A stretch of DNA of 64,000 nt from Granulibacter bethesdensis (GTDB taxonomy: Bacteria > Pseudomonadota > Alphaproteobacteria > Acetobacterales > Acetobacteraceae). The stretch lies in the NCBI RefSeq assembly GCF_001889545.1, contig NZ_CP018194.1:1710501-1774500 (forward strand), given 5' to 3'. The notes below the pieces were generated by a model. The model made no database searches and was not told where the DNA came from. It saw only the letters and a list, made by a program, of their open reading frames with translations. Below, piece by piece: positions 27,027-59,277 of this stretch; the first letter of the stretch is position 1, and each line of letters starts with the position of its first letter. Both the position numbers and the translations under genes were made by a program.

Positions 27027-29999
27027 TCAACTTACGGTTTCTTCCAGAATGGATTGCAGCCGCTGCTGATAGACCTCGCGCGAATGATCCTGCAAAATAC
27101 GTGCATAAGCTCCGTTGCGGATGCTGTTCCACAAGGTCTCATCCCGGTACAGGGCCAGGATACGATCCGCGAAACGCTGCCGGTCATCATCTCCGCCATC
27201 CGCGATTTCCACCCCGTCTGACCAGCCGAGCTGGCGACACAGCAGAGAGCTGGCCACAACCGGAATCCCGTAAGACGCAGCCTCATGAACCTTGTAGGGT
27301 ATACCGGCAGCAAATCGTGTCGGGGCCACGAAGACACGATGACGGTTATAAAGCGGCGCCAGATCGTCGACCGGCCCTACAAAATTGACGCTGGGCAGGC
27401 TGGCAATGGGCCCTGTATCCGTGCCAGGCGCCACATGGCCGACAAGGGTGATTTTAAGATGCCGCCCCATCGTGTCCTGAACAATCGGCATGATCGCATG
27501 CAGGAACCAGAGCAGGCTGTCATAATTCGGTGACATGGTCCCATGCAGCGCGCCAACGAACAGGATATCCCTGCGATCCTCGTAACCCGGCGTTTCACCG
27601 CGCTGTGGCACATAATGCCCGAGCGTATCAATGGTCGAGTATCCGGCATTGCGGATAATTTCGGCATCAATATCGTTCACGGCGATGATCCGCTGGGCGA
27701 AACGTGCGCAATCCAGCTCCATCTCCACCGTCGGAACGTCCTTGATACTCCGCCCGGTCAACTGGCGATGGGCGATTTCACGGGGCGCCACCACAGCCTC
27801 GGTATCCAGCACGATCGTGCTGCCTGAAACGCTGGAGGCAACAGAGTCCAGAACAGGTGCCAACAGACGCAGATTATGCGTCCGGGCAATCCAGAGAATA
27901 TCGTACATCCCCGGTCTGCTGCCCAGAAAATCCGCAAACCGGTCGAAACGATGATCATGCATCACTTCGACACTGTCAGGAAAATCCATCCGCCAATCGA
28001 GGGCCAGCGTGGCGTCAGGATGCAGCGGAAACACCGTGACGGCATGGCCAAGCGCATCCATGGCCCGGATAATATCATTGGACCGGACATAACCGGACCC
28101 CAGATACCGCATCGGCATTCGATCCTCGACCACCAGGATACGCAATTGACGCCGTCTGGCGCTGCGGGCACGGTGGAAGCTGGTTTCGCTGAAACCATGA
28201 TGAAATCTCAGCACATCCCGGTGCTGACGGCAGAAAATATCCCGCGCCCGCCCAATGGAGCGCGCCGCCCATCCTGCGCTGGATGATCCGTATTCATAAT
28301 GGTGGATCACCACCGATGGATCGTACAACGTGACATAGCCGTGCTTTTTCAGACGCAGGCAGAGATCGGTATCCTCATAATAGGCCGGGCGATAGACCGG
28401 ATCAAAGCCACCCAGCGCCTTGACCTGCTCCGTGCGGGTCAACAGAAAGGCAGCCGAGCAGAAATCCACCTCCCGCACGAAATTGGCTTCCGGCGCATCA
28501 ACCGGATAATCGCGGGCATACCCATTGGTGCGCCCGTCCCGCCACACGATGCAGCCTGCTTCCTGCAAGAGGCCGTTGGTGCGGATGATCTTTCCACCGA
28601 CAGCCCCTGCCTGCGGATTGGCCGCCAGACGCTGGATCGCCCGCTCCAGCGCAAGCGGCCCCAGCACCACATCATTGTTCAGATACAGCGTATAGACGCC
28701 GCAGGCATGCTCCAGCCCGACATTACAACCGGCGATATAGCCGCGGTTGGTAGGAAAATGGATAACCTTCGCACCATGCACATAGCGTTCAATGGCCGTG
28801 GTTTCATCCAGCGATCCTGAATCAACCAGAATCACCTCCAGATCGACTTTCTGCGCCGCAAGCGAAGCCAGTGTCTGCATGGTCAGATGAAACTGGTTAT
28901 GCATCACGATAATGACGGAAACCGTCGGAGGCACGCTGCTGTCACGGGAGAAATCAAGCCCGTGCGGCATCAGACAGGCCAGTATATTGCGTGCCTGCTG
29001 AGCAAACAGGGCGCGCGTCTGGTTTTCAGTCGGGGTTGGCTCCTCTTCCTGTACAAAGCCCTCGATCTGACGGGCAATGTGCAGCGCAAAAGAATCACGG
29101 ATGATGTTGCTGGTCGTATTCAGGGTCGACTGCGCATCTGTTGACGGAGGCTGCCAGTCGTGACGCGGATGGCGCCTCTCTTTGATGCCGAATTCCAGAA
29201 AATGCATATAGCCGTTGCGGAAGCGGCCTTCCTTCAGAAAGCCGGCCAGATCCGGATTACCGGACAGATACTCCTCCTCCGCGAAAAACGGATTGGGATT
29301 GAAAGAATGCGGCGTTTCATTGCCAAGGTAGTGCGCCAGAGGACTGGCCCATCGCCCGGCAGCCACCTCTTCCGCCACCGCCGGATAGTTTTGCAGATAC
29401 CATTCGGCATCGAAATACCAGGACGAGCGCGGATAAAGCCCCTGCCCGGCCAGATCGAATACATCCTCGATCAGGCTGCGGTCTTCCTTTCTTGGCGGCA
29501 CATGGGCAGGCCTGAACATGTTCCACAGATCAGGATCCAGAAACAGACTCGGCTGCCGCCCTTCCGCAGCCCCTTCGCGCAGATAGTGATCAAACCCGTT
29601 GACAAAATCCCCTCTGCCGACCGGCCCGTCAAAGCGGAACAGATCGGGATAGGTCCGCTGATACCACGCCTCATCGAACAACCAGTTGGGAGAACGGATT
29701 TTATGGCCGACCAGGAAATAATGATCGTAGCCACAGGTGAATACACCCTGCTCTATTGCAGTCCGCACATCAGGGTTGGCATTCACATACCATTGTTCGT
29801 CAAACAGTGCATTGGGGCAAAAACCTGACTGATGGCCTTCATCCCGATAATGATGCCAGCCATCCTGCTTGCCATATTTGACTGTGTACCAGTCAGCATC
29901 GAAAAACAGCCAGGATGGAACTGTTTTTTTCCACGGCACACATGGCAATGCAGCAGAAGAGTCCTGGTCAATCTTGCCATGAAGAAGCTCATGAAGCAT
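27027..29999 (-). CDS. two-domain glycosyltransferase (GT2 + GT4) with N-terminal tail repeats
   Basis: A 990-residue protein. Residues of about 25-330 contain at least five copies of a unit of the form F-D-x-x-W-Y ... P-D ... HY/F-x-x-x-G. Residues 359-600 are a GT2 domain: VSVIIVMHNQF, EVILVDSGSLDET, NRGYIAGCNVGLEHACG, YLNNDVVL, and YYEDTDLCLRLKKHGY. Residues 620-985 are GT4-like: DILFVGALHGTMSPNYDSLLWF and FVAPTRFAAGIPYKVHEAASYGIPVVAS. It probably extends a surface glycan in two steps. A 27-26.8 kb AT-rich gap (26830-27026) separates it from the Hint gene and holds only that gene's promoter. Confidence 0.88.
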   Translation of the reverse strand: MLHELLHGKIDQDSSAALPCVPWKKTVPSWLFFDADWYTVKYGKQDGWHHYRDEGHQSGFCPNALFDEQWYVNANPDVRTAIEQGVFTCGYDHYFLVGHKIRSPNWLFDEAWYQRTYPDLFRFDGPVGRGDFVNGFDHYLREGAAEGRQPSLFLDPDLWNMFRPAHVPPRKEDRSLIEDVFDLAGQGLYPRSSWYFDAEWYLQNYPAVAEEVAAGRWASPLAHYLGNETPHSFNPNPFFAEEEYLSGNPDLAGFLKEGRFRNGYMHFLEFGIKERRHPRHDWQPPSTDAQSTLNTTSNIIRDSFALHIARQIEGFVQEEEPTPTENQTRALFAQQARNILACLMPHGLDFSRDSSVPPTVSVIIVMHNQFHLTMQTLASLAAQKVDLEVILVDSGSLDETTAIERYVHGAKVIHFPTNRGYIAGCNVGLEHACGVYTLYLNNDVVLGPLALERAIQRLAANPQAGAVGGKIIRTNGLLQEAGCIVWRDGRTNGYARDYPVDAPEANFVREVDFCSAAFLLTRTEQVKALGGFDPVYRPAYYEDTDLCLRLKKHGYVTLYDPSVVIHHYEYGSSSAGWAARSIGRARDIFCRQHRDVLRFHHGFSETSFHRARSARRRQLRILVVEDRMPMRYLGSGYVRSNDIIRAMDALGHAVTVFPLHPDATLALDWRMDFPDSVEVMHDHRFDRFADFLGSRPGMYDILWIARTHNLRLLAPVLDSVASSVSGSTIVLDTEAVVAPREIAHRQLTGRSIKDVPTVEMELDCARFAQRIIAVNDIDAEIIRNAGYSTIDTLGHYVPQRGETPGYEDRRDILFVGALHGTMSPNYDSLLWFLHAIMPIVQDTMGRHLKITLVGHVAPGTDTGPIASLPSVNFVGPVDDLAPLYNRHRVFVAPTRFAAGIPYKVHEAASYGIPVVASSLLCRQLGWSDGVEIADGGDDDRQRFADRILALYRDETLWNSIRNGAYARILQDHSREVYQQRLQSILEETVS

Positions 30000-42969: not shown

Positions 42970-44214
42970 TTAATACTCCAAAATGACGAGACCCGCTGCG
43001 CCGGGCGAGCCATATTGTTGGGAGTGAGCAGAGCCACCAGCACCACCACCTGGGTAAACGCCACTCGGACCCGCCACAGATTGCGTGCCTGCGTATGCTA
43101 TCCGCTGTGTCCATCCACCCCAGAAAACGCCACCACCAGCAGAGCACACCAGCAGGTAGGTCGATCCACTCTGCCCCATGAGAATAGCAATCCCGCTGGA
43201 ATCTCCGGTTCTGCTCAGGCTGCCAGAGGGCGCTACCGGCACATCACCGCCAGCACCTCCACCGACCATAATTCCTGACCCTGACCCGCCCTGTCCCCCT
43301 CCACCACCGTGGACATAGATGAAAGTAGTGCCATTTTTTGAGATTGCGCTGTCACCTCCGGTAACACCGTAATTGCCAGGTGCTCCACCGCTACCGCCCC
43401 CACCTACAACAATGGAAAGGCTGTCGCCCGGCACTACCGAGAAATAGCATTCGACATAGCCACCGCCACCGCCGCCGCGTGCTGCATCATTGGTTTGGCC
43501 AGTACCACCGCTGCCTCCACCGCCGCCCCATACACGGGCCTTGATCCGCGTCACACCTGAAGGAACGGACCAGGTCGTTGTGGCACCCAGGACCAATTCG
43601 CGAGTAAGGCCACCCGGCTGCTTGCCGTCAGTATATGTATTTGCTGATGATACAGCCGAAGATATAGCTGAAGATACACGCGATTGTACAAAAGCTGTTG
43701 TGGCAGCTCGGTTACCATTATCCACGTTTGACTGAATCGTCGGGACGAAAACATCAGAGCAATAAAAGCTGATACCAGCACTTCCGATCTGTCCGGGCGA
43801 CCCACCTAAAGCAATAATTCGGGCATTATAATCTGTGTTTGTTCCATCGGTATGAAAATCAATATATGCAACGGATGAAACTGACTGGGATCCCAACTCC
43901 AGAGAACCCAGCATAGTGGTTGTGCCAAGAATCGTTGGATTGCGAATGGGCAGAAACCAGTTTTTCAGCACCCCTCCAGCTTTGCCTGTTTCTGTCTCAC
44001 TCGGCTGGCTGCCATCGAGGCCTATGACAGAGGAAATCTGCTGGTACAGCCACTTTATTTTCCAGTCTCTTTCCTGAAACATCCCGTTGAAGAGCTCCAC
44101 ACTGGGTGGAATTTGTCCCAGATAGGAAAAACCCTGATCTGACTGTGTATCGCTCGGCGGGGATACCGTTCCTTTTGAGGCCCACAGACTGCTGAAACGG
44201 TTAAAAAACGACAT
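42970..44214 (-). CDS. tail fibre protein with glycine-rich C-terminal tip
   Basis: A 414-residue protein. The first 100 residues contain FNGMFQERDWKIKWLYQQI, typical of fibre attachment regions; the middle includes NRAATTAFVQSRV, a common tail-fibre motif. The last 180 residues begin ATTTWSVPSGVTRIKARVWGGGGG and continue as glycine loops to GAAGLVILEY, a receptor-binding tip fold of the polyglycine type. It should set host specificity. Confidence 0.8.
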   Translation of the reverse strand: MSFFNRFSSLWASKGTVSPPSDTQSDQGFSYLGQIPPSVELFNGMFQERDWKIKWLYQQISSVIGLDGSQPSETETGKAGGVLKNWFLPIRNPTILGTTTMLGSLELGSQSVSSVAYIDFHTDGTNTDYNARIIALGGSPGQIGSAGISFYCSDVFVPTIQSNVDNGNRAATTAFVQSRVSSAISSAVSSANTYTDGKQPGGLTRELVLGATTTWSVPSGVTRIKARVWGGGGGSGGTGQTNDAARGGGGGGYVECYFSVVPGDSLSIVVGGGGSGGAPGNYGVTGGDSAISKNGTTFIYVHGGGGGQGGSGSGIMVGGGAGGDVPVAPSGSLSRTGDSSGIAILMGQSGSTYLLVCSAGGGVFWGGWTQRIAYAGTQSVAGPSGVYPGGGAGGSAHSQQYGSPGAAGLVILEY

Positions 44215-45825: not shown

Positions 45826-46428
45826 TTATCCGGCTGAAGGCGGGCCGGAGCGTCCGGAACCGGGCTGCACACCGGTATGGGCATGTGTCTTGACCGAAAT
45901 ACCGCCAAAGACCGCATCCTGATCACCGGATACCGCGCCTTTGATTGTAAAGCCACCCGGCGCATTCAGCACGATGCCACCGGAAGGGGTGAGTTCCAGA
46001 GAGGCAGAGCCGAACGCAATCACCATATTTTCGGCGTGGGCCGGAGCTGTGGCTTTACTGTGCGCGAGGCCCGGCACGGCAATGGCGTCCGTGATGTTGG
46101 TCTGGCGGAAATTATCGACAATATCACTGCCGGCATCTTTCCAGTTTTCCAGCGAACGCTGGCAGAAATGCAGCATGACACCATCACCGGGATGCAATGG
46201 CCAGGTGATGCCGACAGTGCCGACAGAGGGAAACACGACAGGCACATCGACAATACGCGGGGCTTTTATAATCTCCGCATCGGGCGAGGTTTTGGACAGG
46301 GAAAGCTGCACCACAGCGCGGCGTGTGGTGGTGTCATACGACACAATGGTGCCCGGCATCGTCGTATTGATACGATCACAATGTGAGGCAATCAGGTTTT
46401 TCAGAATCTGTTTGATGTTATCAGACAT
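45826..46428 (-). CDS. baseplate central spike protein (Gp138-N type), copy 2
   Basis: A 200-residue spike with an OB-type N-terminal domain (INTTMPGTIVSYDTTTRRAVVQLSL, WPLHPGDGVMLHFCQRS) and C-terminal THAHTGVQPGSGRSGPP, the H-x-H tip that binds a metal ion in such spikes. It is roughly three-quarters identical to the copy at 52509-53108. It follows hub copy A by 21 bases. Most phages of this kind carry one spike gene. Confidence 0.85.
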   Translation of the reverse strand: MSDNIKQILKNLIASHCDRINTTMPGTIVSYDTTTRRAVVQLSLSKTSPDAEIIKAPRIVDVPVVFPSVGTVGITWPLHPGDGVMLHFCQRSLENWKDAGSDIVDNFRQTNITDAIAVPGLAHSKATAPAHAENMVIAFGSASLELTPSGGIVLNAPGGFTIKGAVSGDQDAVFGGISVKTHAHTGVQPGSGRSGPPSAG

Positions 46429-46449: not shown

Positions 46450-47475
46450 TCAGTAATATTTGTAGCCAAACTTGTTTATCTCTTCCTGACGCTTTTTCTC
46501 GGCCTGAATGGCATTTTTCAGGGAAGACAAGCCATCCTGCGCTTCCTTGCCCACCGCTGCAGAAAAGAATTCGAGGGAGACAAGGTTGATCGTCGATGTC
46601 CATGTTCCCACCTCAGCATTCTGATCCGGCATTGTATCGCCATTATGCTCGATAGTATCGACACGGAATTCCTTGTAAGCCTTAGCCTGCTGAAGCAATA
46701 CTCGATCACCCGGGTTGAGATCAGGCCGCATCAGCGAATACACCTGCACACCTTCCACAGGCCCAACACCGGAGACCAGTTCCTTGAGGTACGGGTTATC
46801 CGCGGGATTCAAATCTCTTATGATAGCAGAACTCCGTGGCCCCTGGACGGTTTTTTCTATATAACGGATCAGCCCTGTTTCCATGCTCAGAAGGACAGGA
46901 GGACGAGTGGTCGTCTCCCCATTTCTGGTCACCTGAATCGTTTTGTTCTGAACAGAATATTGCAAGCCGACAGAATGGCAGATGCCCTCGAGCATATCTT
47001 TTGCCGATCCGTAAAAGCTGAAGCCGCTTTTCAGACGTCTGTCGCCAATGCCATCTGCCATGTTCAATGTCATTTTGGCGTTTCTGGCCGCTGCTTCAAT
47101 GATGTCCCTGACCGCAATTCCTTTTTCCCCTGTAAAGCTTATCAGCGATCTGGATAAAAGGTCAGAGCCATCGAAGCCTATAACGGTAACAATATAGTCG
47201 GCGTTTCTGTGGGAGCTTTTTATTGTGTATGGGGAACCAGAGAAAGCCAGACTAAACGGTCCGGATTCATAACCACAATATACTTCCATATCTTGAGAAT
47301 TTTCTATAATACGCAATGATTGTTGTGATAAATTATACAAATCTATTTTGATACTATTTCCTGAATTATTATACATTCTTTTGATATTTATTTTAGATTT
47401 TATGTTTGTGTATTTCACAACTCCTTGTTTAGACGTAAAAATAATTTCGTATTTTCTATTGTTTAGAGAAATCAT
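46450..47475 (-). CDS. baseplate hub protein, copy A (full length)
   Basis: A 341-residue gpD/gp27-like hub. Family-like segments are ADYIVTVIGFDGSDLL, VRDIIEAAARNAKMTLNM, FSFYGSAKDMLEGICHSVGLQYSVQN and PVEGVQVYSLMRPDLNPGDRVLL. The start ATG overlaps the stop of the exported-protein gene upstream (ATGA). The N-terminal 60 residues differ from copy B far more than the next 120, which are nearly identical in DNA. The closest relatives in this window are copies B (48075-48632) and C (50914-51834). Confidence 0.8.
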   Translation of the reverse strand: MISLNNRKYEIIFTSKQGVVKYTNIKSKINIKRMYNNSGNSIKIDLYNLSQQSLRIIENSQDMEVYCGYESGPFSLAFSGSPYTIKSSHRNADYIVTVIGFDGSDLLSRSLISFTGEKGIAVRDIIEAAARNAKMTLNMADGIGDRRLKSGFSFYGSAKDMLEGICHSVGLQYSVQNKTIQVTRNGETTTRPPVLLSMETGLIRYIEKTVQGPRSSAIIRDLNPADNPYLKELVSGVGPVEGVQVYSLMRPDLNPGDRVLLQQAKAYKEFRVDTIEHNGDTMPDQNAEVGTWTSTINLVSLEFFSAAVGKEAQDGLSSLKNAIQAEKKRQEEINKFGYKYY

Positions 47476-48036
47476 TCTACCACTTCCCCATCTGAATGAC
47501 ATGTTTTATGAAATATTTCCTTCAAAAATGTACCTGCAACCTCTTCGCCATACAATGTCCATCCTCGACTTGATTTGATAGCAAATTCTCTTCTTGGTAT
47601 ATCATTATTTAATATTTCTTCCGTTGTCATGCATACAAACCAATCTCCTTGTTCGTTAATAGTGACATGCGACTCTGACCAATAAATCTTTGGATTTCTT
47701 TTCTTAAGTTCATCCCAAAAAGACTGTGTAAAAAGATTTTCTTTTTCTCCACGATAAAGATGATATGGACCGGGCGGCACGTCATATTTTTGGCGCAGTT
47801 TTCCCAGTATTTCCGGGGTCAGCTTGCTTTCTATAGCCTCGTTCTTTTTTTCCCGACGCTCTATTTCCTCCTGCAGGCCCTTCTGTAATCTGTTCAGTAG
47901 CTTCGGGTCCCACACATCCGCAACAGCGATGCCACAGGATAAGCTGCTACCTAAAAGAACCGCGGCAAAAACAAGGTTTTTGTATTTCATTGTCTGATAC
48001 ACTCCATTTTATTGCTCTCATCTCCTTTGCTATCAT
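46936..48036. repeat. direct repeat, copy A (about 1.1 kb)
   Basis: This stretch matches 48093-49193 at a constant offset of 1157 bases, over its whole length. The two ends (46936-47285 and 47600-48036) are nearly identical; the centre (about 47290-47590) has diverged to roughly three-quarters identity. Confidence 0.9.
47472..47990 (-). CDS. exported V-P-x-G-P-Y family protein, copy A
   Basis: A 172-residue protein with a signal peptide (KYKNLVFAAVLLGSSLSCGIAVA) and a mature domain having KLTPEILGKLRQKYDVPPGPYHLYRGE, then GDWFVC and, near the end, KTCHSDGEVVE. The two mature cysteines could form a disulphide in the periplasm. No known family recognised. Three more paralogues lie in this prophage (48629, 51831, 53150). 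It overlaps the hub A start by four bases, so the pair is made together. The GTG at 48002 is a less likely start. Confidence 0.7.
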   Translation of the reverse strand: MKYKNLVFAAVLLGSSLSCGIAVADVWDPKLLNRLQKGLQEEIERREKKNEAIESKLTPEILGKLRQKYDVPPGPYHLYRGEKENLFTQSFWDELKKRNPKIYWSESHVTINEQGDWFVCMTTEEILNNDIPRREFAIKSSRGWTLYGEEVAGTFLKEIFHKTCHSDGEVVE

Positions 48037-48038
48037 AC

Positions 48039-48076
48039 AGAAAGCGCACCACACCATCCGGTGTAATGCGCTTTCT
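48039..48076. other. composite hairpin between the two repeat copies
   Basis: AGAAAGCGCA (48039-48048) pairs with TGCGCTTTCT (48067-48076), with an inner perfect stem ACACC/GGTGT and a four-base loop. The truncated hub B ends inside it. It separates cassette B from exported protein A. Confidence 0.75.
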
Positions 48077-48632
48077 ATATGATAATCGTGTCAATCGTTT
48101 TGTTCTGAACGGAATATTGCAAGCCGACATGGTGGCAGATGCCTTCGAGCATATCTTTTGCCGATCCGTAAAAGCTGAAGCCGCTTTTCAGACGTCTGTC
48201 GCCAATGCCATCTGCCATGTTCAATGTCATTTTGGCGTTTCTGGCCGCTGCTTCAATGATGTCCCTGACCGCAATTCCTTTTTCCCCTGTAAAGCTTATC
48301 AGCGATCTGGATAAAAGGTCAGAGCCATCGAAGCCTATAACGGTAACAATATAGTCGGCGTTTCTGTGGGAGCTTTTTATTGTGTATGGGGAACCAGAGA
48401 AAGCCAGACTAAACGGTCCGGATTCATAACCACAATAGACTTCCATATCTTTAGATTTTTCTATTATACCTAATGATTTTTCTGATATATTATATAAATC
48501 TATTTTGATACTATTGCCTGAATTATTATACATTCTTTTGATATTTATTTTTGCTTTTATATTTTTATATTTTACCACTCTTTCGTCAGACGCAAAAATA
48601 AATTCATATTTTCGATCTTGTAAAGAATTCAT
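48075..48632 (-). pseudogene. baseplate hub protein, copy B, truncated
   Basis: A 185-residue frame equal to the first half of hub A. It matches copy A up to VGLQYSVQNKT and then ends IDTIII within nine codons, because the 1.1-kb duplication stops there (48093). The C-terminal half needed for a working hub is missing. Its own N-terminal region (NSLQDRKYEFIFASDERVV) differs from copy A. It overlaps the upstream exported-protein gene by four bases. Confidence 0.8.
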
Positions 48633-49193
48633 TCTACCACCTCCCCGTCCAAATCACATGCTTTATCAAATATTTGCATCAAAAATTTACCTCCAAACTC
48701 TTCATCATACAAAGTCCATCCCTGACTTGATTTGATAGAAAGTGCTCTTCTTGGTATATCATTATTTAATATTTCTTCCGTTGTCATGCATACAAACCAA
48801 TCTCCTTGTTCGTTAATAGTGACATGCGACTCTGACCAATAAATCTTTGGATTTCTTCTCTTAAGTTCATCCCAAAAAGACTGTGTAAAAAGATTTTCTT
48901 TTTCTCCACGATAAAGATGATATGGACCGGGCGGCACATAATATTTTTGGCGCAGTTTTTCCAGTATTTCCGGGGTCAGCTTGCTTTCTATAGCCTCGTT
49001 CTTTTTTTCCCGACGCTCTATCTCCTCCGCCAGCCCCTTCTGTAATCTGTGCAGTAGCGCCGGGTCCCACACATCCGCAACAGCGATGCCACACGATAAG
49101 CTGCTACCTAAAAGAACCGCAGCAAAAACAAGATTTTTATATTTCATTGTCTGATATACTCCATTTTATTGCTCTCATCTCCTTTGCTATCAT
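48093..49193. repeat. direct repeat, copy B (about 1.1 kb)
   Basis: Second copy of the tandem duplication at 46936-48036, separated by a 56-base spacer with a hairpin. It carries the first half of a hub and a full exported-protein gene. Confidence 0.9.
48629..49147 (-). CDS. exported V-P-x-G-P-Y family protein, copy B
   Basis: A 172-residue paralogue of copy A, nearly identical for the first 130 residues and then different (RRALSIKSSQGWTLYDEEFGGKFLMQIFDKACDLDGEVVE against copy A's RREFAIKSSRGW...). The signal peptide, PPGPY and GDWFVC are kept. It overlaps the truncated hub B by four bases. The gene itself is intact. Confidence 0.7.
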   Translation of the reverse strand: MKYKNLVFAAVLLGSSLSCGIAVADVWDPALLHRLQKGLAEEIERREKKNEAIESKLTPEILEKLRQKYYVPPGPYHLYRGEKENLFTQSFWDELKRRNPKIYWSESHVTINEQGDWFVCMTTEEILNNDIPRRALSIKSSQGWTLYDEEFGGKFLMQIFDKACDLDGEVVE

Positions 49194-49285
49194 CAAGCGT
49201 CGAGGCCAGTGCTCCACACATGATCAACAATGTGCAGCACAGATATGAACGCCTCACCTCCACTCCCTTCCGCCTGTTGATCGTT

Positions 49286-49319
49286 CCACGGATGATGCAG
49301 AGTATGCATCATCCTGTGG
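49286..49319. terminator. hairpin between the J gene and exported-protein copy B
   Basis: CCACGGATGATGCA (49286-49299) pairs with TGCATCATCCTGTGG (49305-49319), 10 perfect bp plus an outer CCAC/GTGG. It lies 36 bases past the J gene stop; no strong T tract. The rest of 49194-49354 shows nothing else. Confidence 0.65.
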
Positions 49320-49354
49320 CACAATTATGATCCTCCGATCTCTGCTATTTCGAA

Positions 49355-50818
49355 TCACGAAACATAGATACGTGTGGTATCGAAGATTGCACGCTCACGG
49401 GCGCCGATGGAGATATTGGCCTGCGTATAGGCTCCGCTGGCTGGCATTGTTGCAGGGTCGTTGCTGACGGCAAGGCTGAGCGTGAGGGATGCAATGCCGC
49501 TGACTGTTTCGTAAATCGGGCCAAGGAAACGCTGCACTATCACATCCTCGGCAATATCGAGCGTAGCCCCGGTATCATTCAGGGATTGCTGGATACGCAG
49601 CAGACCATCAGCGGGAAATGTTTCCTCGCTCAATGTCGTCACCTTGCAGGTGATCCAGATATAGCGCCGCACCGGCCTGGTGAAGCCTATGTTGCACCAT
49701 TCCGCGCCGTTGCGTACGCCGGTGCTGATCTGCACGATCTGGCTGTTGAGGCCGTATGCGGTGATACCGGCTGGCTTCACGGCCTGAATCTGCGCAGCGA
49801 CGGCGGCGTCTTCTCCGCCCTCGACAATGCATTCAACGCTGTGCGGGGGGCGTCCGTCGGCATCGACGGAGGCTGTATCGTTTTCGATCACCATCGCCGT
49901 GGTGACACCTTGCACATTCTGAAGCAGGCTGGCCCGGATAGAGGGCAACGTCCCTGCCCCCAACCGATAGACGCCGCGCGCATAACGTGCCCGCAAGGCT
50001 GAATCGGTCTCATAAAGCCGGCCCGGCGTGGCATCCTGAAGATTAAGAAGACGTTTGAGGCCGGAGATCGTGTTGCTGATCGTGGTGATGGAGTTTGCAG
50101 GCGCGGTATAAGGCCCGTAATCACGCGCAATAAACAGACCGGGGGTTCCCATCTCCGTCATGATCAACAGGGAGGATGTGGCAACGCTGATTGTCCTGCG
50201 TCCATCGGTAACCATACGCAGAACTGCGCTGCCGCCACTTCCCTGCACACTGGCATTGTATCCGGCAGCAGAGACAGCAGCCACGAGCTGCGCCAGAATG
50301 GCCGGGGCATTGGCCGAGGCTGCGGTGATGCTGAAACTGACAGAGTTCAGCACAATAGAGTAGCTTTGCCCCGCCACAGCGCTGCTGACGCCGATGGAGA
50401 CATCGGCCAGAGTATCAGGGCTGATTTCCGTATCAGCGGCGAGCAGAAAACGCGTCAGCCCGGCCTGCTGAGGGGCTGCTGTTCCGGCGGGCACCAATGT
50501 ACCTGCATCGCCGTACAACACGCAGTATACCTGCGAGCGCGTGGCCTGAAGCCGGGTGACACCGGTGAAGGAAACGGCCTTGTCCAGATTGCTGCCGCTG
50601 GCGGTGGCTGGATACATGGCGTTATAGACGCCCTCGGCCATTTCCCACAGCGCAGCCTCTCTCTCCGCAAAGGTGGCGACGATCTGACCGAGGACGGTAT
50701 CAGGCTGGGTTGCGATCTCCGCCCCGAATGCATTTTGCAGGGTGGTGATGATCTCCGCCCCGATATCGCTCATGCGGCGCTTGATGAAACCGGACGGGGT
50801 GATGCCATAGCTGGTCAT
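49355..50818 (-). CDS. baseplate J-like protein
   Basis: A 487-residue gpJ-type wedge protein. The N-terminus has FIKRRMSDIGAEIITTLQNAFGAEIATQPDTVLGQIVATFAEREAALWEMAE, the hallmark of the family, followed by YPATASGSNLDKAVSFTGVTRLQAT and TSVAVSG-type beta domains. GRLYETDSALRARYARGVYRLGAG is the conserved baseplate_J core. The ATG at 50818 has AAAGGAAAAAG upstream; a GTG at 50848 lies inside the terminator repeat and is unlikely. Confidence 0.9.
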   Translation of the reverse strand: MTSYGITPSGFIKRRMSDIGAEIITTLQNAFGAEIATQPDTVLGQIVATFAEREAALWEMAEGVYNAMYPATASGSNLDKAVSFTGVTRLQATRSQVYCVLYGDAGTLVPAGTAAPQQAGLTRFLLAADTEISPDTLADVSIGVSSAVAGQSYSIVLNSVSFSITAASANAPAILAQLVAAVSAAGYNASVQGSGGSAVLRMVTDGRRTISVATSSLLIMTEMGTPGLFIARDYGPYTAPANSITTISNTISGLKRLLNLQDATPGRLYETDSALRARYARGVYRLGAGTLPSIRASLLQNVQGVTTAMVIENDTASVDADGRPPHSVECIVEGGEDAAVAAQIQAVKPAGITAYGLNSQIVQISTGVRNGAEWCNIGFTRPVRRYIWITCKVTTLSEETFPADGLLRIQQSLNDTGATLDIAEDVIVQRFLGPIYETVSGIASLTLSLAVSNDPATMPASGAYTQANISIGARERAIFDTTRIYVS

Positions 50819-50842
50819 GAAACTTTTTCCTTTCAGGAAAAC

Positions 50843-50880
50843 AGACACAAAAAAAGCCGCATCCGGTGACGGAGGCAGCT
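50843..50880 (-). terminator. 38-bp direct repeat, copy 1, an intrinsic terminator
   Basis: Identical over 38 bases to 52441-52478. On the minus strand it reads as an imperfect GC-rich hairpin (GCTGCCTCCG / CGGATGCGGC) and then seven T. It lies between the hub C stop and the J start, 25 bases before the J ATG. Confidence 0.85.
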
Positions 50881-50913
50881 GCGAAGAAAGACGGTGGATG
50901 GTGGGGAGGAGAG

Positions 50914-51834
50914 CTATTCAACTAGAGTGATCGTTGATGTCCATGTTCCAAGTTCTGTTTCTTTTACCGGCATGCTGTCACCATTATGTTCAATCGTATC
51001 AATACGGTATCGTTTAGTTCCGGTGTTGGGATTCTGGATCCTGACCATATCGCCTGGCATTAGATCCGGTCGCATTAATGAGTAAATTTTTAAGCCTTGC
51101 TCCGGAGCATCGGCCGAAACAATATTTTTTATATAAGGATTATTTGTTGGATTAATTCCCCTCGTAAAAACAGAAGCTCTGGGTGTTTTATAAATCATGT
51201 CAATATAGCGGATTAAACCATTTTCCATTGTTAACAACGTATCCACAGTAGAAGAACTGTTGTTTTTTTTACTGATCTGAATAACCCCATTCTGAACAGA
51301 GTATTGAAGTCCTTCCGCCTTACAGGCATCATCAAGCATATCTTTGGATGAACCATAGAAACTATATCCATGTTTCCAAGCACGCCGTCCAATATCTGGG
51401 GCCATTTTCAGATTTAAACGTGCATCTCGTGCAGCAGCCTCAATAATATCCCTCACATAAACCCCATTTTCCCCTGTATAACTAGATAGTGAGTGAGATA
51501 AAATATCATTTCCATCAAATGCTACAATAGAAGTTATATAATCAGCATTAATATGATAAGTCTTTAGAGAATCAACTCTCCCTAAAAAGGCAAGAAAAAT
51601 TCTCTCTTCGTAACCTATATATAATTCCATCTTATTTGATTTTAAAATAAAATTTAAACTCAAATTATCAATGTTACAAATATTTAATTCTATATTATTT
51701 CCACTATTACTATATTTTCTCTTTATATTAAAAAATACTCTTAGTTTTTCAATAATTAATACATCATTATTTGTAGAATAAAATTTTACTATTATTTTTC
51801 TTTCTGATAAATTCATTTTTTGTAAGTATTTCAT
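50914..51834 (-). CDS. baseplate hub protein, copy C
   Basis: A 306-residue paralogue of hub A, quite divergent in sequence and very AT-rich. It keeps ADYITSIVAFDGNDILSHSL, VRDIIEAAARDARLNLKM, YSFYGSSKDMLDDACKAEGLQYSVQNGVIQI, APEQGLKIYSLMRPDLMPGDMVRI and ends at GTWTSTITLVE; hub A continues 35 residues further with a lysine-rich tail. Its start overlaps the exported-protein C stop by four bases. The pair is bounded by two copies of a terminator repeat. Confidence 0.8.
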   Translation of the reverse strand: MKYLQKMNLSERKIIVKFYSTNNDVLIIEKLRVFFNIKRKYSNSGNNIELNICNIDNLSLNFILKSNKMELYIGYEERIFLAFLGRVDSLKTYHINADYITSIVAFDGNDILSHSLSSYTGENGVYVRDIIEAAARDARLNLKMAPDIGRRAWKHGYSFYGSSKDMLDDACKAEGLQYSVQNGVIQISKKNNSSSTVDTLLTMENGLIRYIDMIYKTPRASVFTRGINPTNNPYIKNIVSADAPEQGLKIYSLMRPDLMPGDMVRIQNPNTGTKRYRIDTIEHNGDSMPVKETELGTWTSTITLVE

Positions 51835-52355
51835 TCTATAATCTCCCCATCAGCACGGCAAGCTTGCAGCATAATTGGCATATAAATTTTATCTCCAACC
51901 TCATTTGAATATAAAATCCATCCATTACTAGATTTTATTGCATTTATCCAATATTTTGCTCCGCTTTTTAGAATCTTTTCAATATTAATGCAAGAAAACC
52001 AGTCCCCACTATCATTAATGGTTGCATAAAATAGAACTGTATGGAAGTCTGGATATTTTCTCTGGATCTCCTCCCAAAAATCATTATTTATTTTTTCTGC
52101 AATTTTTCCCCTAAAATTATGATATGGACCTGCAGGGACACTATATTCCCTTTTCATCCTTTCAATCATTTCCGGTGTCTGCTTATTTTCTATTTCCTGA
52201 TTATGAAGCCTTTCTTTTTCTTTTTGGATAAAAAAATCACGTTCATATCTTTCTAAATCTTTCTGATCCGCGACATCCGCTAACGCGGGTATTGAGACAC
52301 ACGATGTAGAAAATACTAGCAACGCAGTGCATAGATGTTTAGCATTTACCATCAT
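51831..52355 (-). CDS. exported V-P-x-G-P-Y family protein, copy C
   Basis: A 174-residue, AT-rich paralogue. Signal peptide (KHLCTALLVFSTSCVSIPALA), then KQTPEMIERMKREYSVPAGPYHNFRGK, GDWFSC and a terminal QACRADGEIIE. AAAGGAG lies five bases before the ATG. It overlaps hub C. Same two cysteine positions as the other copies. Role unknown; proposed as a partner of the adjacent hub. Confidence 0.7.
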   Translation of the reverse strand: MMVNAKHLCTALLVFSTSCVSIPALADVADQKDLERYERDFFIQKEKERLHNQEIENKQTPEMIERMKREYSVPAGPYHNFRGKIAEKINNDFWEEIQRKYPDFHTVLFYATINDSGDWFSCINIEKILKSGAKYWINAIKSSNGWILYSNEVGDKIYMPIMLQACRADGEIIE

Positions 52356-52440
52356 TGAAACTCCTTTTGATCTTTTGACCTACGATACCGATTATGCACC
52401 CTCTTATGGCAGGATTATGCTCCGGGATCGAGACGAACGA

Positions 52441-52478
52441 AGACACAAAAAAAGCCGCATCCGGTGACGGAGGCAGCT
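52441..52478 (-). terminator. 38-bp direct repeat, copy 2, an intrinsic terminator
   Basis: Perfect copy of the repeat at 50843-50880, here between the spike 1 stop and exported-protein C. The two copies bracket cassette C (exported protein plus hub) exactly. Confidence 0.85.
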
Positions 52479-52508
52479 TACAAAAGCCCTGACAGAATCA
52501 GATAAAAA

Positions 52509-53108
52509 CTATGCAGAAGGTGGCCCGGATCGTCCGGAGCCAGGCTGAACACCGGTATGGGTATGGGTGCTGGTCGAAATGCTGTTAAACACCGCATCCT
52601 GATCACCCGTCACCTTTCCCTTGATGCTCAATCCACCGGGTGCATTCAGCACAATGCCGCCGGAGGGCGTAATTTCCATGGAGGCAGAGCCGAACGCAAT
52701 CACCATATTCTCTGCATGCGCCGGATCTGTCGCAGCCCCGTGATTCAAACCCGGCACCGCAATAGCGTCAGAGATGTTGCTTTGCCGGAAATCATCAACG
52801 ACATCATCACCGCGATCCAGCCAGTTTTCCAAAGATCGCTGACAGAAATGCAGCATGACTCCATCCCCCGGATGCAGCGGCCAGGTGATCGCAACGCCGC
52901 CCCCAGTCGGAAACACCACCGGCACAGACACCACGCGCGGTGCTTTCAGAACGATCCCCTCCGGCGAGGTTTTGGACAGGGAAAGCTGCACCACCGCCCG
53001 TCGCGTTGCCGGATTATAGGAAACAATCGTCCCAGGCATTGTCGTGTTGATCCGATCGCAATGCAATGCAATCATGTTTTTAAAAATTTGTTTGATATCT
53101 ACAGTCAT
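52509..53108 (-). CDS. baseplate central spike protein (Gp138-N type), copy 1
   Basis: A 199-residue spike paralogous to 45826-46428, with INTTMPGTIVSY, WPLHPGDGVMLHFCQRSLENW and the H-x-H-T-G-V-Q-P-G-S-G tip (THTHTG). GAGGAG precedes the ATG at 53108. It follows exported-protein D by 41 bases. Confidence 0.85.
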   Translation of the reverse strand: MTVDIKQIFKNMIALHCDRINTTMPGTIVSYNPATRRAVVQLSLSKTSPEGIVLKAPRVVSVPVVFPTGGGVAITWPLHPGDGVMLHFCQRSLENWLDRGDDVVDDFRQSNISDAIAVPGLNHGAATDPAHAENMVIAFGSASMEITPSGGIVLNAPGGLSIKGKVTGDQDAVFNSISTSTHTHTGVQPGSGRSGPPSA

Positions 53109-53149
53109 AATCAAAACTCCTCACAACGATTTTTGATAGTTAACACTGA

Positions 53150-53824
53150 CTATTCAGCAATTTCGCCATTTGAATAACAGGCCTTTTTCTCTATCTCGTT
53201 GAAAAAGCTTCTTCCAACCTGAAAATTATCAATCATCCATCCTTCGCTTGACATAATCCAATCGTGCCGCTGTTGGTAGCCATTCTTCAGGTTGAGCCAG
53301 GCAGAATAACAGACAAACCATTGCCCATTGTCATTGATACTGATGTGACCAGATGGCTTCATAAGATCATTACCTTCAAAGCTGATAGCCAATTTATCCT
53401 CGAATTTTTTGAATAGTTTTTCTTTTTCTTTCCCTCTGTATTCATAATAGGGGCCAGGTGGAACGACGCATTGTTTTCTTAACTCTTCAAGCTCTTCTGG
53501 TGTCCGATTTTTTTCAATCGTTTCCAAATATTTTTCATCACGCAGATATTGCCTATAATTGATTTCATTCTGGATCAGCCTTCGCTCTCTTTCTGATTTT
53601 GTTTCAGGGATCTCAGTACAACGCTTGGTGACATCGGTGTATTGGTTTTGATAAAAACATTCCCCGTATACTTCACAAAATCTGTGAATATCACCGGGTG
53701 TATCTTTATCCATGTCGATGACGCGGCTGCTTCTCTCGACACAAATTTTTTCGGCCAAAGCAGGAAAACAAGTCAGGCCCACGCATAGCATCACCGCCAG
53801 ACCGGCAAGATTTTGATGTTTCAT
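53150..53824 (-). CDS. exported V-P-x-G-P-Y family protein, copy D (extended)
   Basis: A 224-residue member with a signal peptide (HQNLAGLAVMLCVGLTCFPALA) and an extra cysteine-rich N-terminal stretch (KICVERSSR, HRFCEVYGECFYQNQ, KRCTE) missing from the other copies. It keeps RTPEELEELRKQCVVPPGPYYEYRGK, GQWFVC and a terminal KACYSNGEIAE. Unlike A-C it precedes a spike, not a hub. Function unknown. Confidence 0.65.
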   Translation of the reverse strand: MKHQNLAGLAVMLCVGLTCFPALAEKICVERSSRVIDMDKDTPGDIHRFCEVYGECFYQNQYTDVTKRCTEIPETKSERERRLIQNEINYRQYLRDEKYLETIEKNRTPEELEELRKQCVVPPGPYYEYRGKEKEKLFKKFEDKLAISFEGNDLMKPSGHISINDNGQWFVCYSAWLNLKNGYQQRHDWIMSSEGWMIDNFQVGRSFFNEIEKKACYSNGEIAE

Positions 53825-53893
53825 CGTCATAACCTCTTCACTGAAATCCCGGATCGAGCCCCATGAACGCGTCCTGTCTCCCGACGCATCCCT

Positions 53894-53945: not shown

Positions 53946-54320
53946 TCATGCCCCCCCGATGCCGAGCGGGATGATGTCCGACACCATCCCGAACCGGGTG
54001 CGGGCAGAGAACACGATGGACAGGGTTCGGCTCGGACGATCCAGAGTCGCGGTCAGGCTTTCGATCGCCTCCACATCCGGAACGGAGGTGATCGCCGCCG
54101 CAAAAATGGACTGCAAAACGACCCGCTGAGGCTCCTTGACCAGCACATTTTGCAGGTAAGGTATTCCGAAATCGAGGTCCAAAAACCACTCTCCACGCCA
54201 TGCCCGGAGGGTGATTCCGATCTCCTGACGTACTCTGGCCAACCCATCGGAGAGAATCAGGTCTCCATTGGTCAAAACAACGTCCCGAGTCGCATTCGAC
54301 AGGAGGATATCGTAGCCCAT
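53946..54320 (-). CDS. baseplate wedge protein, gp25/gpW type
   Basis: A 124-residue protein with GLARVRQEIGITLRAWRGEWFLDLDFGIPYLQNVL, the conserved gp25-like core, and VPDVEAIESLTATLD. It joins the wedge to the sheath end. AAAGGA precedes the ATG at 54320. A hairpin and an exported-protein gene follow, interrupting what is usually a wedge-J run. Confidence 0.85.
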   Translation of the reverse strand: MGYDILLSNATRDVVLTNGDLILSDGLARVRQEIGITLRAWRGEWFLDLDFGIPYLQNVLVKEPQRVVLQSIFAAAITSVPDVEAIESLTATLDRPSRTLSIVFSARTRFGMVSDIIPLGIGGA

Positions 54321-54362
54321 GCTAAATCCTTTCATATTTTACGTTAAAAGCCCTCCGCCTGC

Positions 54363-55055
54363 TCATTGCCCGGCTCTCTTTCCACCAGCAGAAACCGGGG
54401 GCAGAGCAGGAGGCGAAACAGCAGAAGGAGGGTTATGAGGTGCGTTTTCCGGGGAGCAGACATGCGCCCAGGTCCACCCAAAATCGGCGTGTCGATCGCT
54501 TTCCAGCAGCAATGCACCCGATGAAGCCGCCACGAATCGGCCCGAGTCGTGCCCTGCCGATTCGACCGCTCCATCCCCCGATCGGGTCACGGAACCGCAT
54601 ATATACCATTGCGATTCGCCCCCCTTCCCTTCCCCGACTCGGGCTGCATGGGCATCAGAAATGCTGATTCCACGACCCAGTTTTGCTTCCAGCGCAGCCT
54701 CAGCAGAGCGTCTCATGCCCGCCGACTCGCTGTCCGGCACGTGCTGCACGGGTTGCTGACTCACGCGAATCGGCGGCGCGGCAGCCGCACCAGGGGCTTC
54801 ATGAGCGCGGGCATGCAGCTCCGCCCGTTGTACCGCGCCGATACTGGCCAAAGCAGGGGCAGGATGAGGGGCCACATCCCGCGTCTGGGCCATGGCAGGG
54901 GCCAGAATCAGCACCGACATGGCCAGTGCAATGCCGCATAGGGCGCTACAGCGGGCACCCTTCCGCTCCCTCCGCCGCTCCTGCCATTGGGCAACATCGC
55001 GGAAACGCAATGAAATCAGTCTGGAAGCAGGGCAGAAGGGGCGTGTTTTCGGCAT
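54363..55055 (-). CDS. exported protein of unknown function inserted in the baseplate region
   Basis: A 230-residue frame with a basic stretch and hydrophobic segment (CGIALAMSVLILAPAMAQ) ending in a plausible signal cleavage site, then an alanine/proline-rich mature part. The late part has QWYICGSV ... RFVAASSGALLLES ... WTWAHVC. The order W-[YF]-x-C, a short strand, then a last cysteine recalls the V-P-x-G-P-Y proteins, so it may be a remote relative, but the P-G-P-Y block is missing. The true start is uncertain. Not a standard baseplate gene. Confidence 0.5.
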   Translation of the reverse strand: MPKTRPFCPASRLISLRFRDVAQWQERRRERKGARCSALCGIALAMSVLILAPAMAQTRDVAPHPAPALASIGAVQRAELHARAHEAPGAAAAPPIRVSQQPVQHVPDSESAGMRRSAEAALEAKLGRGISISDAHAARVGEGKGGESQWYICGSVTRSGDGAVESAGHDSGRFVAASSGALLLESDRHADFGWTWAHVCSPENAPHNPPSAVSPPALPPVSAGGKRAGQ

Positions 55056-57215: not shown

Positions 57216-58931
57216 TTAACCTTCTGACCGCTTGTCCCCGCTATTGGTCTGCCGGGCGAAGCTGTCAGCGCTGCCTTCCAGACTGTCGGACACACCCTGT
57301 GCAGCGAGGGCTGCGATGGTGTCGGCATCCCCGGATGGAGCAGTGATGGAAATGGAGGGCGCACCAACCGACACATTGGTGACGTAGCTGACCGCCCCTC
57401 CGGCGCGGCCAATGCTGTCTGGCTCTGCCGCACCATGCAGTGGATCGCGCAGCAGGCTGACCGGTGGCAGCATGTCGCCGAGCACCTGCCTCAGCGCCGC
57501 AAGACCGGGCAAAGGCGCTGGCGGAAGTGCCAGAGACGCGGGGGGCACAGCAATTGGCACAGCGTCAGCCTCCATGGAGAAGGCTCCTTCCCTGCCGGCG
57601 CTCTGCTGGCTGGAAGAAAGGGGTTCTGACGCTTCCCTGTGCTCATTTCCCTCCCCTCCGGCACGGTTTTCTCCGGAAGCAGAAAGCGAGGATGGCAGCA
57701 GCGCCGCCCGCAAAGCCGTCAGACCGGACAGCAGGGAGGACGCCTCCTCCGCCATGGCCGAGCCAGACCGATGCCTGCCCTGCGCCTCGGCTGAGACCCA
57801 TTCATCATCTGTCGCAGGAGAAGAGGGAGCCGCCTTGTCCGGATGCGCCGTGACGGGCAGCAGGGAGGTCAGAAGAAGCGGCAGGGACAAAGCAGTCTCA
57901 TGTCCGTCCGGGCTGATACCTGCCCCGGCCTGAGAAGATTTCAGCGCCAGTACCAAATCAGAAAAAATGTCAAGCTCTGACTGCGTAGTATTACCCGGCC
58001 TGATGCCATCAGACATCTGGGAAAGAGAGGCATCCCCTGGCCTCACGGCCCATGCCTGCATGGCTTCGCGCAACGCGCCGGTCAGGTCGATCCCGCGCTC
58101 TGCCACGGCAGGCTCCGTGAGCTGCACGGCTGGCAGCGGCCCCGCAGAAAGGCCGGACGATGCTCCGGCAGTTGCAACTGCCCCCTCCAGCATCTCCTGC
58201 CGCAAGGAAGCACGGAAAGCGGAAGCCGGATCATCACCCGCCCCCTGCGCTATGGAGGGTTCCCCTGCCGTCCGCTCCGGCGAGGAGGAGACGGGTGGCA
58301 GTTGCGGCAACAGCAGGGTCTCCGCCTGCCGCATGATCCGCTCGGTCAGCGAGGTCTCCGGTACCGTCTCCTGTGATGCAGAAGCTGGCTGAAGCGCCGA
58401 CAGCATCCTGTGCAGGGGGGACATCTCTCCCTCAGCAGAGGAAACCTGCTCGGCAGAAGAAAGACCGGGAGGGGCAGAAAAGCCGGGAGGGGTAGAAAAA
58501 CCGGAAGCAGTTGCAAACTGCCCCATCATCGCCAGCGAGGCGGCTGGCACAAGCTGCATCAACGCCCCCCGCATTGTCTGCGCCATGGCAGACAGGGAGG
58601 CAGCCCCGACATCAGCCGTCCCGCTGCTCCCTGCGGCCGCCGAAGCAGCGGTATTACCCGGTGTATCGGCAGCCCCCCGCAACAGGGCCAGCATTGTCTG
58701 GGACATGGACTGCACCACCGACAGGCCGGACAGAAGTGTTCCGGAAGCAGCATCCGGCTGTCCTGCGGAACCGGTGCCGGGATTACTGCCCGAACCACCC
58801 AGTTTCGTAGCCATGGCGGCGGTGCGTTCCATCTCCTCGCGCAGACGCATCGTTTCGGCACGCGCCTCATCGATGCCGCTGCGGTCGAACTGAAACCGGA
58901 TCAGCGTGACCAGTTCACGCAGAATGGCCAT
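57216..58931 (-). CDS. tail tape measure protein (short)
   Basis: A 571-residue protein with a charged helical start (AILRELVTLIRFQFDRSGIDEARAETMRLREEMERTAAMATKLG), typical of tape measures, followed by long serine/alanine/glycine-rich low-complexity sequence. It lies right after the tail assembly chaperone pair. AAGGAG precedes ATG 58931; the longer frame to 59015 is not needed. Since tape length sets tail length, this implies a short tail. Composition is unusual for a tape measure, so confidence rests mainly on position. Confidence 0.72.
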   Translation of the reverse strand: MAILRELVTLIRFQFDRSGIDEARAETMRLREEMERTAAMATKLGGSGSNPGTGSAGQPDAASGTLLSGLSVVQSMSQTMLALLRGAADTPGNTAASAAAGSSGTADVGAASLSAMAQTMRGALMQLVPAASLAMMGQFATASGFSTPPGFSAPPGLSSAEQVSSAEGEMSPLHRMLSALQPASASQETVPETSLTERIMRQAETLLLPQLPPVSSSPERTAGEPSIAQGAGDDPASAFRASLRQEMLEGAVATAGASSGLSAGPLPAVQLTEPAVAERGIDLTGALREAMQAWAVRPGDASLSQMSDGIRPGNTTQSELDIFSDLVLALKSSQAGAGISPDGHETALSLPLLLTSLLPVTAHPDKAAPSSPATDDEWVSAEAQGRHRSGSAMAEEASSLLSGLTALRAALLPSSLSASGENRAGGEGNEHREASEPLSSSQQSAGREGAFSMEADAVPIAVPPASLALPPAPLPGLAALRQVLGDMLPPVSLLRDPLHGAAEPDSIGRAGGAVSYVTNVSVGAPSISITAPSGDADTIAALAAQGVSDSLEGSADSFARQTNSGDKRSEG

Positions 58932-58935
58932 TTCC

Positions 58936-59277
58936 CTATCTCCTTCTTGCCGTTCCGTCTGTCTGGTAACGCCCCATCTGGTCCCGCCCCATCTGGTCCC
59001 GTCTGGCCGCCGCATGCTGCTGCGCGCGCATGTCCAGCAATGCGTTCAGCTTCAGCAGGTCATCCAGCGTCACCACGCCGCCGCGCAGCTCGCCCAGCGA
59101 GACATGCCCGGCCAGCAGGGGACGCCAGATCAGCAGTTCTGACCTCAGTTCTTCAGAGAGCTGTCCACCGTTTCCGCTGCCGCTTTGCGGTTCATCCCAC
59201 TCGGCAGAACCTGTCCAATGAGGGTTCTGCCGCGCTCGAAAAAACCCGCGTAGTTGATCCTCACCACTTCCATGCAC
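58936..59277 (-). CDS. tail assembly chaperone, C-terminal extension made by -1 frameshift
   Basis: The frame GFFRARQNPHWTGSAEW ... SEELRSELLIWRPLLAGHVSLGELRGGVVTLDDLLKLNALLDMRAQQ lies in the -1 frame relative to the chaperone gene at 59145-59639 and overlaps it. It has no convincing start of its own (GTG 59277 lacks context). It ends four bases before the tape measure start. The fusion product would be about 234 residues, like lambda gpG-T. Confidence 0.82.
   Translation of the reverse strand: MHGSGEDQLRGFFRARQNPHWTGSAEWDEPQSGSGNGGQLSEELRSELLIWRPLLAGHVSLGELRGGVVTLDDLLKLNALLDMRAQQHAAARRDQMGRDQMGRYQTDGTARRR

Follow-up and report, generated by a model that had tools for sequence, protein, structure and literature searches.

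A family of predicted exported proteins adjoining full and broken baseplate hub genes in a contractile-tailed phage-like element of Granulibacter bethesdensis

Results and Discussion

Composition of the Baseplate Locus

Four paralogous genes for small proteins with predicted export signals, here called E1 to E4, have been identified in the baseplate part of a contractile-tailed phage-like gene cluster of Granulibacter bethesdensis, in a stretch of 64,000 nt (contig NZ_CP018194.1, positions 1,710,501 to 1,774,500; hereafter, the window). Genes of this family precede full-length baseplate hub genes, broken hub starts or, in the case of E4, a spike gene, and recur at the same locus in two sister species. 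The cluster occupies the minus strand from approximately 39.6 kb to past the right end of the window, contains GH108 endolysin, fibre, I-position, spike, hub, J, gp25, sheath and capsid genes, and runs on into protease, portal and terminase genes on L026. Read in the direction of transcription, the baseplate part consists of a PHROG 817 gene, a PHROG 349 gene, the open reading frame (ORF) 54363–55055, gp25, E4, spike2, a 38-nt repeat, E3, hub3, a second 38-nt repeat, J, E2, the hub2 remnant, E1, hub1, spike1 and the I-position gene. The features are as follows.

47472..47990, minus strand: E1, exported-type protein adjoining full hub1 (ATG at 47990; the listed GTG ORF starts at 48002)
48629..49147, minus strand: E2, exported-type protein, orphan copy followed by a hub remnant
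51831..52355, minus strand: E3, exported-type protein adjoining full hub3
53150..53830, minus strand: E4, longer exported-type paralogue with a Cys-rich insert, ahead of spike2
46450..47475, minus strand: hub1, full baseplate hub with AT-rich, variable residues 1–65 (PHROG 196)
48075..48632, minus strand: hub2 remnant, about 180 hub residues followed by an unrelated frame (185 aa)
50914..51834, minus strand: hub3, full baseplate hub (PHROG 196)
45826..46428, minus strand: spike1 (PF18352 + Apex)
52509..53114, minus strand: spike2 (PF18352 + Apex)
49355..50818, minus strand: baseplate J-like wedge gene between two E–hub groups (ATG at 50818 is the likely start)
53946..54335, minus strand: gp25-like wedge gene
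50843..50880, minus strand: 38-nt terminator-like repeat after hub3
52441..52478, minus strand: second, identical copy of the 38-nt repeat, between spike2 and E3 (resembling a terminator by eye; the terminator scan flagged the 50843..50880 copy only)
46936..47235, minus strand: 300-nt direct repeat within hub1, 98% identical to its partner at 48093–48392
48093..48392, minus strand: 300-nt direct repeat within the hub2 remnant, partner of 46936..47235
48038..48075, minus strand: inverted repeat AGAAAGCGCA..TGCGCTTTCT between the hub2 remnant and E1 (by eye)

The hub ORFs match PHROG 196 (baseplate hub) with E-values from 3e-24 to 5e-46. Some listed starts were reconsidered: that of hub1 (47502) lies inside E1, and the ATG at 47475 instead yields an ATGA overlap with the E1 stop, while the listed GTG start of J (50848) falls within the terminator-like repeat. 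The end of E4 is separated by 35 nt from the listed start of spike2 (52509–53114).

An earlier note on this DNA had described four paralogous signal-peptide genes, and the corresponding ORFs are indeed found on the minus strand at 47472–48002, 48629–49147, 51831–52355 and 53150–53830. It also reported ATGA overlaps with the hub frame for E1, E2 and E3, with E4 placed ahead of a spike, and this arrangement is confirmed. Out of the three hubs and two spikes that it counted, both spikes (PF18352 + Apex) stand, and only two hubs are full, 48075–48632 being a remnant.

The E Protein Family

Sixteen E copies have been found at the baseplate locus, and nowhere else, in three genomes: four in that of the window (G000), and five and seven, respectively, in two genomes of sister species (G001 and G002). 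All 16 start with a signal-peptide-like hydrophobic stretch followed by a cleavage-like site, which is Ala-rich in E1–E4, with the best 12-residue N-terminal hydropathy ranging from 2.04 to 2.98, and E1–E4 have no stretch of transmembrane strength after the N-terminus; the export of E is a prediction from simple hydropathy only. The G-P-Y and G-x-W-F-x-C motifs and the last Cys are invariant in all copies. The motif proposed in the earlier note is retained as regards G-P-Y and the last Cys, and its [GD]-W-F-x-C part misses E4, which has G-Q-W-F-V-C, so that G-[DNQ]-W-F-x-C describes the family better. As matches between E proteins in the sister genomes reach 9.6e-84, the paralogy is not due to chance. 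In the phylogenetic tree, E1-type (eight copies) and E4-type (three copies) proteins form strongly supported clades, and the E3 type (five copies), a weaker one.

E proteins have no match with an E-value better than 0.03 in Pfam and PHROGs, nor one better than 0.056 among PDB sequences, in agreement with the statement in the earlier note that no described family could be recognized. A lipoprotein assignment was considered and rejected: no lipobox Cys is conserved, and several E3-type copies have no Cys at the position aligned with that of the hydrophobic region.

The family is confined to one genus among the genomes searched. No full-length match has been found in 394 other genomes of the same bacterial family, in 384 other genomes of a class-level sample (overlapping with these 394), or in INPHARED phages and the genome-contig collection, although records close to the window's genome may be hidden in some of these collections; six partial matches (36–93 residues, E-values 0.0018–0.0097, in frames of 324–854 aa) were dismissed as chance. 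The single E-bearing contig in IMG/VR has 16,516 bases identical to the window. Wide occurrence of the family without hubs, which the earlier note had named as an observation that would speak against its proposal, is therefore not what we see, the family having been seen only in this genus in the collections searched, with no match in INPHARED.

The minus-strand ORF 54363–55055, located next to gp25, also looks exported and contains W-Y-[IM]-C along with a late Cys; it is 72–73% identical to its counterparts in the two sisters and has no family match. As a candidate fifth E protein it receives no support (hhalign probability 0.4%).

E–Hub Junctions and Hub Remnants

With the E4 type set apart, each of the 13 remaining copies overlaps a downstream hub ATG with its own stop in an ATGA; six of them precede a full hub and seven, a broken hub start. 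The remnant in G000 has 185 aa, those in G001, 15 and 6 aa, and those in G002, 87, 17 and 17 aa, plus a 65-nt hub start fused to hub nt 455–514; both 17-aa remnants probably go back to a single event. A usable hub N-terminus is kept in two of the seven (185 and 87 aa), the other five retaining at most about 22 starting hub codons. By BLAST, the 6-aa remnant is unmatched and three other short ones are matched weakly. Compared with 500 shuffles for each remnant, the match to the hub start is well above the shuffled level in six out of seven cases (reached by none in five, and by two in G1_b), and is weak in G1_f, where 22 of the 500 shuffles reach it. The AGAAAGCGCA..TGCGCTTTCT motif is also seen by eye 3' of the four E1-type orphan remnants of the sisters. 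The three E4-type copies have neither a hub-start match nor an ATGA start, and all precede spike2.

Five and seven copies at the same locus in the sister genomes rule out a recent one-off cassette repeat. Intact genes of a putative immunity type stand next to partner-gene remnants, as in orphan immunity arrays of the T6SS/Rhs/CDI kind, in all seven copies that lack a full hub (E4 apart).

E frames are open in 16 out of 16 copies. The ratio of nonsynonymous to synonymous substitution rates (dN/dS) of E1-type genes is 0.21–0.69 in all 28 pairs, including ten pairs in which both members are orphans; this constraint may partly predate the hub loss. The orphan G1_f has a long branch (1.05 changes per column) and an open frame as well. 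The first copies G1_b and G2_d cluster across species (support 99/98), the E1-type tree being otherwise mostly unresolved. Positive selection on the E1-type copies overall is not supported, as none of the 28 pairs has dN/dS above 1. For E4, dN/dS between G001 and G002 is nominally 1.27, based on few changes, and single windows with pN nominally above pS occur in both E and hub.

Divergence of E and Hub Genes

The synonymous divergence (dS) between G000 and the sisters varies widely along the locus. It is 0.24–0.30 for J, gp25 and both spikes, 0.53 for the I-position gene, 0.62–0.74 for E1 and hub1, and 1.08–1.32 for E3, hub3 and E4. The excess shared by E3 and hub3, and by E1 and hub1, fits joint replacement by diverged cassettes.

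Junction regions were compared in five close cassette pairs, using the segments E 126–end, hub 1–65 and hub 66–170. In three pairs, both flanks of the junction are strongly divergent: G0c1/G0c2 (70% identity in E 126–end and 75% in hub 1–65), G1c1/G2c1 (68% and 68%, with E 81–125 also at 69%) and G1c3/G2c3 (83% and 77%), while hub 66–170 is 91–100% identical in the same three pairs. In the remaining two pairs, divergence is high on one side only.

Hub residues 1–65 are more divergent than residues 66–290 in all six ortholog pairs, by factors of 1.34, 1.35, 1.78, 2.25, 4.04 and 17.3. In 22 control hub pairs from other phages this factor is 0.90–1.96, and three of the six ortholog pairs exceed all of them. 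The base composition of the region also stands out, GC content being 22.6% for hub1 residues 1–65 and 15% for the first 71 residues of hub3, vs. 59% for J.

Hub Relatives in Other Phages

For comparison we considered 19 hub relatives, namely 17 phage records, genome G148 and a Criblamydia plasmid; the phage records were hand-picked among the matches listed (50 of 427, 60 of 333 and 30 of 333), and among these listed matches each record has one hub place. Of the 17 phage records, 15 have a gene annotated as a spike or baseplate protein directly after the hub, and the Criblamydia plasmid has a 73-aa gene between hub and spike. Hubs of the Phi92 gp137 / Pam3 gp19 type and spikes of the Pam3 gp20 type are homologous by sequence to the hub and spike described here. 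None of the 19 relatives has an exported-looking gene just upstream of the hub, the best 12-residue N-terminal hydropathy at this position being 0.15–1.33. The E-bearing element thus differs from these relatives, which have one hub in the stretch viewed and no exported-looking upstream gene.

The Element in Three Species

The element is found at the same locus in G000 and in both sister species. DNA identity to the sisters is 88–90% in long blocks on either side, flanking genes included, and 75–82% in the tail-tip blocks. The major capsid protein has dN/dS of 0.02–0.03. A capsid–tail cluster that has kept its locus from species to species and is under purifying selection is what is expected of a gene transfer agent. 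The scan of the element genes revealed no integrase family, and the nearest match to PF00589, the recombinase family searched, is at about 0.44 Mb in G000, 0.43 Mb in G001 and 51 kb in G002.

A Possible Role of E Proteins

In contractile tails, the hub is located inside the baseplate before contraction and afterwards leads the tube into the periplasm. The explanation that we favor, if tentatively and on the basis of gene sequences, is that E proteins, once exported, serve as allele-matched factors of exclusion or immunity directed against the hub, old E genes having been retained after replacement by new E–hub pairs. E would act in the periplasm on the hub as the leading end of the tail tube after sheath contraction, and the carrier lineage would be shielded from particles with a matching hub, by superinfection exclusion or kin immunity. 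Export would separate E from baseplate assembly in the cytoplasm, allowing hub and anti-hub to be made in one cell. Recombination at the conserved hub core would bring in new alleles of E and of the hub N-terminus; the older pair, thereby displaced, would be shifted upstream, where the hub fragment decays, and the displaced E would persist because it is still protective against particles with the old hub. As no harmful domain was detected in the hub, exclusion would have to block puncture or DNA entry.

This proposal combines observations, i.e., the gene order, open E frames next to broken hub starts, the E/hub dS excess and one locus in three species, with steps that we infer, i.e., export (from hydropathy only), hub binding, protection and the order of displacement events. 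The earlier note had also suggested an exported factor matched to its hub. The ATGA junction with a hub or hub start in 13 out of 13 non-E4 copies and the common dS excess agree with that; the matching does not extend to the seven copies with a broken hub start only, to E4, which accompanies a spike gene without excess divergence, or to two of the five close pairs, which are mismatched.

Several observations weigh against the proposed exclusion role. No toxin or lysozyme domain was detected in the hub and spike ORFs by Pfam or PHROGs. E genes are located in the tail gene cluster, so that they may not be expressed in an uninduced cell, whereas Spackle, discussed below, is an early gene; E3–hub3 is, though, flanked by the 38-nt terminator-like repeats. 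Of the seven hub remnants, four are very short. Phage PAK_P2 has 4-nt overlaps between the hub and an unrelated small gene and between the hub and the spike; such overlaps are ordinary in these operons, and hence ATGA alone says little. The dS of E4 to the sisters is 1.3, vs. 0.29 for spike2, and E4-type genes are not linked to a hub. As the excess dS is divergence in blocks, linkage and recombination alone may suffice for it. In the pair G2c3/G2c3p, the hub N-termini are identical (100%) and the second halves of E are 89 and 83% identical; in G1c3/G2c3p, on the contrary, the second halves of E are 98 and 96% identical and the hub N-termini, 77%; and the copies at L022:8186 and 8843 have the remnant and the C-terminus in common and differ in the rest of E. 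Three of the six hub ratios (1.34, 1.35 and 1.78) are inside the control range, and in these pairs the fast hub N-terminus may be an ordinary trait. Finally, plain duplication or conversion fits the G000 E1/E2 pair, whose cassettes are 93% identical over 1.1 kb.

The most serious alternative, which we nonetheless consider somewhat unlikely, is that E is an exported envelope protein of the moron type whose job is unrelated to the hub (e.g., surface change or stress), inserted once before a hub, and that tandem duplications carried the 5' ends of hubs along passively. Gene order alone would make E and the hub 5' end duplicate together, the AT-rich composition of E and of the hub N-terminus fits imported DNA, the 38-nt repeats are present on both sides of E3–hub3, and two close cassette pairs violate E–hub matching. 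This scenario leaves unexplained the common dS excess of E and hub, as well as the fast hub N-terminus in three of the six ortholog pairs.

Two further explanations seem improbable. The arrays may be silent cassettes for switching of the hub N-terminus: recombination between the 98% identical 300-nt repeats of hub1 and hub2, at 46936 and 48093 with a spacing of 1157 nt, would delete 1157 nt and create a working pair of E2 and the hub2 N-terminus. Only two of the seven remnants, however, have a usable hub N-terminus, and yet the E frames of the other five are open. Equally doubtful is the possibility that E is an entry partner in the periplasm of recipient cells, letting kin particles of a domesticated, gene-transfer-agent-like element deliver DNA to them. 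It agrees with the single locus in three species, the capsid dN/dS of 0.02–0.03, the failure of the scan of element genes to reveal an integrase family and the lack of a PF00589 match within about 0.44 Mb in G000; the PF00589 match of G002, at a distance of about 51 kb, argues against it, and divergent E retained after hub loss suits defence better than uptake. The least probable is a recombination hotspot with neutral decay, where E genes are intact merely because the duplications are young: the near-identical E1 and E2 of G000 could be so explained, but not the open frame of the long-branch orphan allele G1_f, the grouping of G1_b with G2_d across species, or dN/dS below 1 in 28 of the 28 E1-type pairs.

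Comparison With Known Systems

Phage superinfection-exclusion lipoproteins of the T5 Llp or Ltp type are exported, phage-encoded and act at the envelope. E resembles them in being phage-encoded and in its predicted export, and differs in having no conserved lipobox Cys.

A closer parallel is T4 Spackle (gp61.3), a helical early-gene product and periplasmic inhibitor of the lysozyme of the tail-spike protein gp5 (PMC7677548). Both would be phage-encoded exported proteins with the tail tip as their periplasmic target, which is established for Spackle and proposed here for E. E differs from Spackle in being multi-copy, variable and encoded in the tail cluster, and in that no lysozyme domain has been found in the hub or spike (PMC7677548).

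In type VI secretion systems (T6SS), sequential effector displacement leaves arrays of orphan immunity genes (PMC5361080). The E arrays are similar, with intact candidate-immunity genes beside partner-gene remnants and variable array length; unlike in the T6SS arrays, the partner is a structural hub in which no toxin domain was detected, and the polarity is reversed, the N-terminus being variable and the E gene located upstream (PMC5361080). Likewise, Rhs proteins have a constant core and a variable end, displaced tips piling up in arrays (PMC2935791); the Rhs variation is at the C-terminus, and that of the hub, at the N-terminus (PMC2935791).

No report of the element, or of exported proteins paired with hub alleles, has been found in the literature, as covered by titles and abstract openings, with subscription journals thinly represented. 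The proposed system would be a variant on superinfection exclusion and orphan immunity arrays, with E matching no family in Pfam or PHROGs. In its most complete form, which we regard as possible and would not press, it would be a mirror-image, polymorphic specificity system on a structural protein of the virion, with the hub N-terminus as the allelic determinant, E encoded upstream as the cognate periplasmic neutralizer, and displaced pairs forming a growing archive of orphan neutralizers in a domesticated, vertically inherited phage. If so, matched immunity would be directed at tail hubs as well as toxins, and phages could exclude relatives at the puncture step with their own assembly unharmed. 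Exclusion genes could then be sought without homology by a sequence signature, namely an exported gene ahead of a hub and broken hub starts lying among exported paralogues, and the locus would provide a test bed for the role of a domesticated contractile particle in the genus.

Other Genes of the Region

Sister matches of the tail fibre gene (42970–44214, minus strand) are confined to residues 1–148, and the C-terminal part has apparently been replaced. At the tape-measure position, a 599-aa ORF (57216–59015, minus strand) has no family match and is 69–73% identical to its counterparts in the sisters. On L026 (4970–7377, minus strand), genes for a cytochrome c domain protein and a BBP2 porin separate the terminase genes from a replication-like gene and an S24 repressor gene. 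A gene for a calpain-family cysteine protease (PF00648; 37421–39553, plus strand) adjoins the element. Farther away, ARAGORN predicts tRNA-Pro at 27292–27383 (plus strand), antisense within a 990-aa ORF (27027–29999, minus strand), which is possibly a false call.

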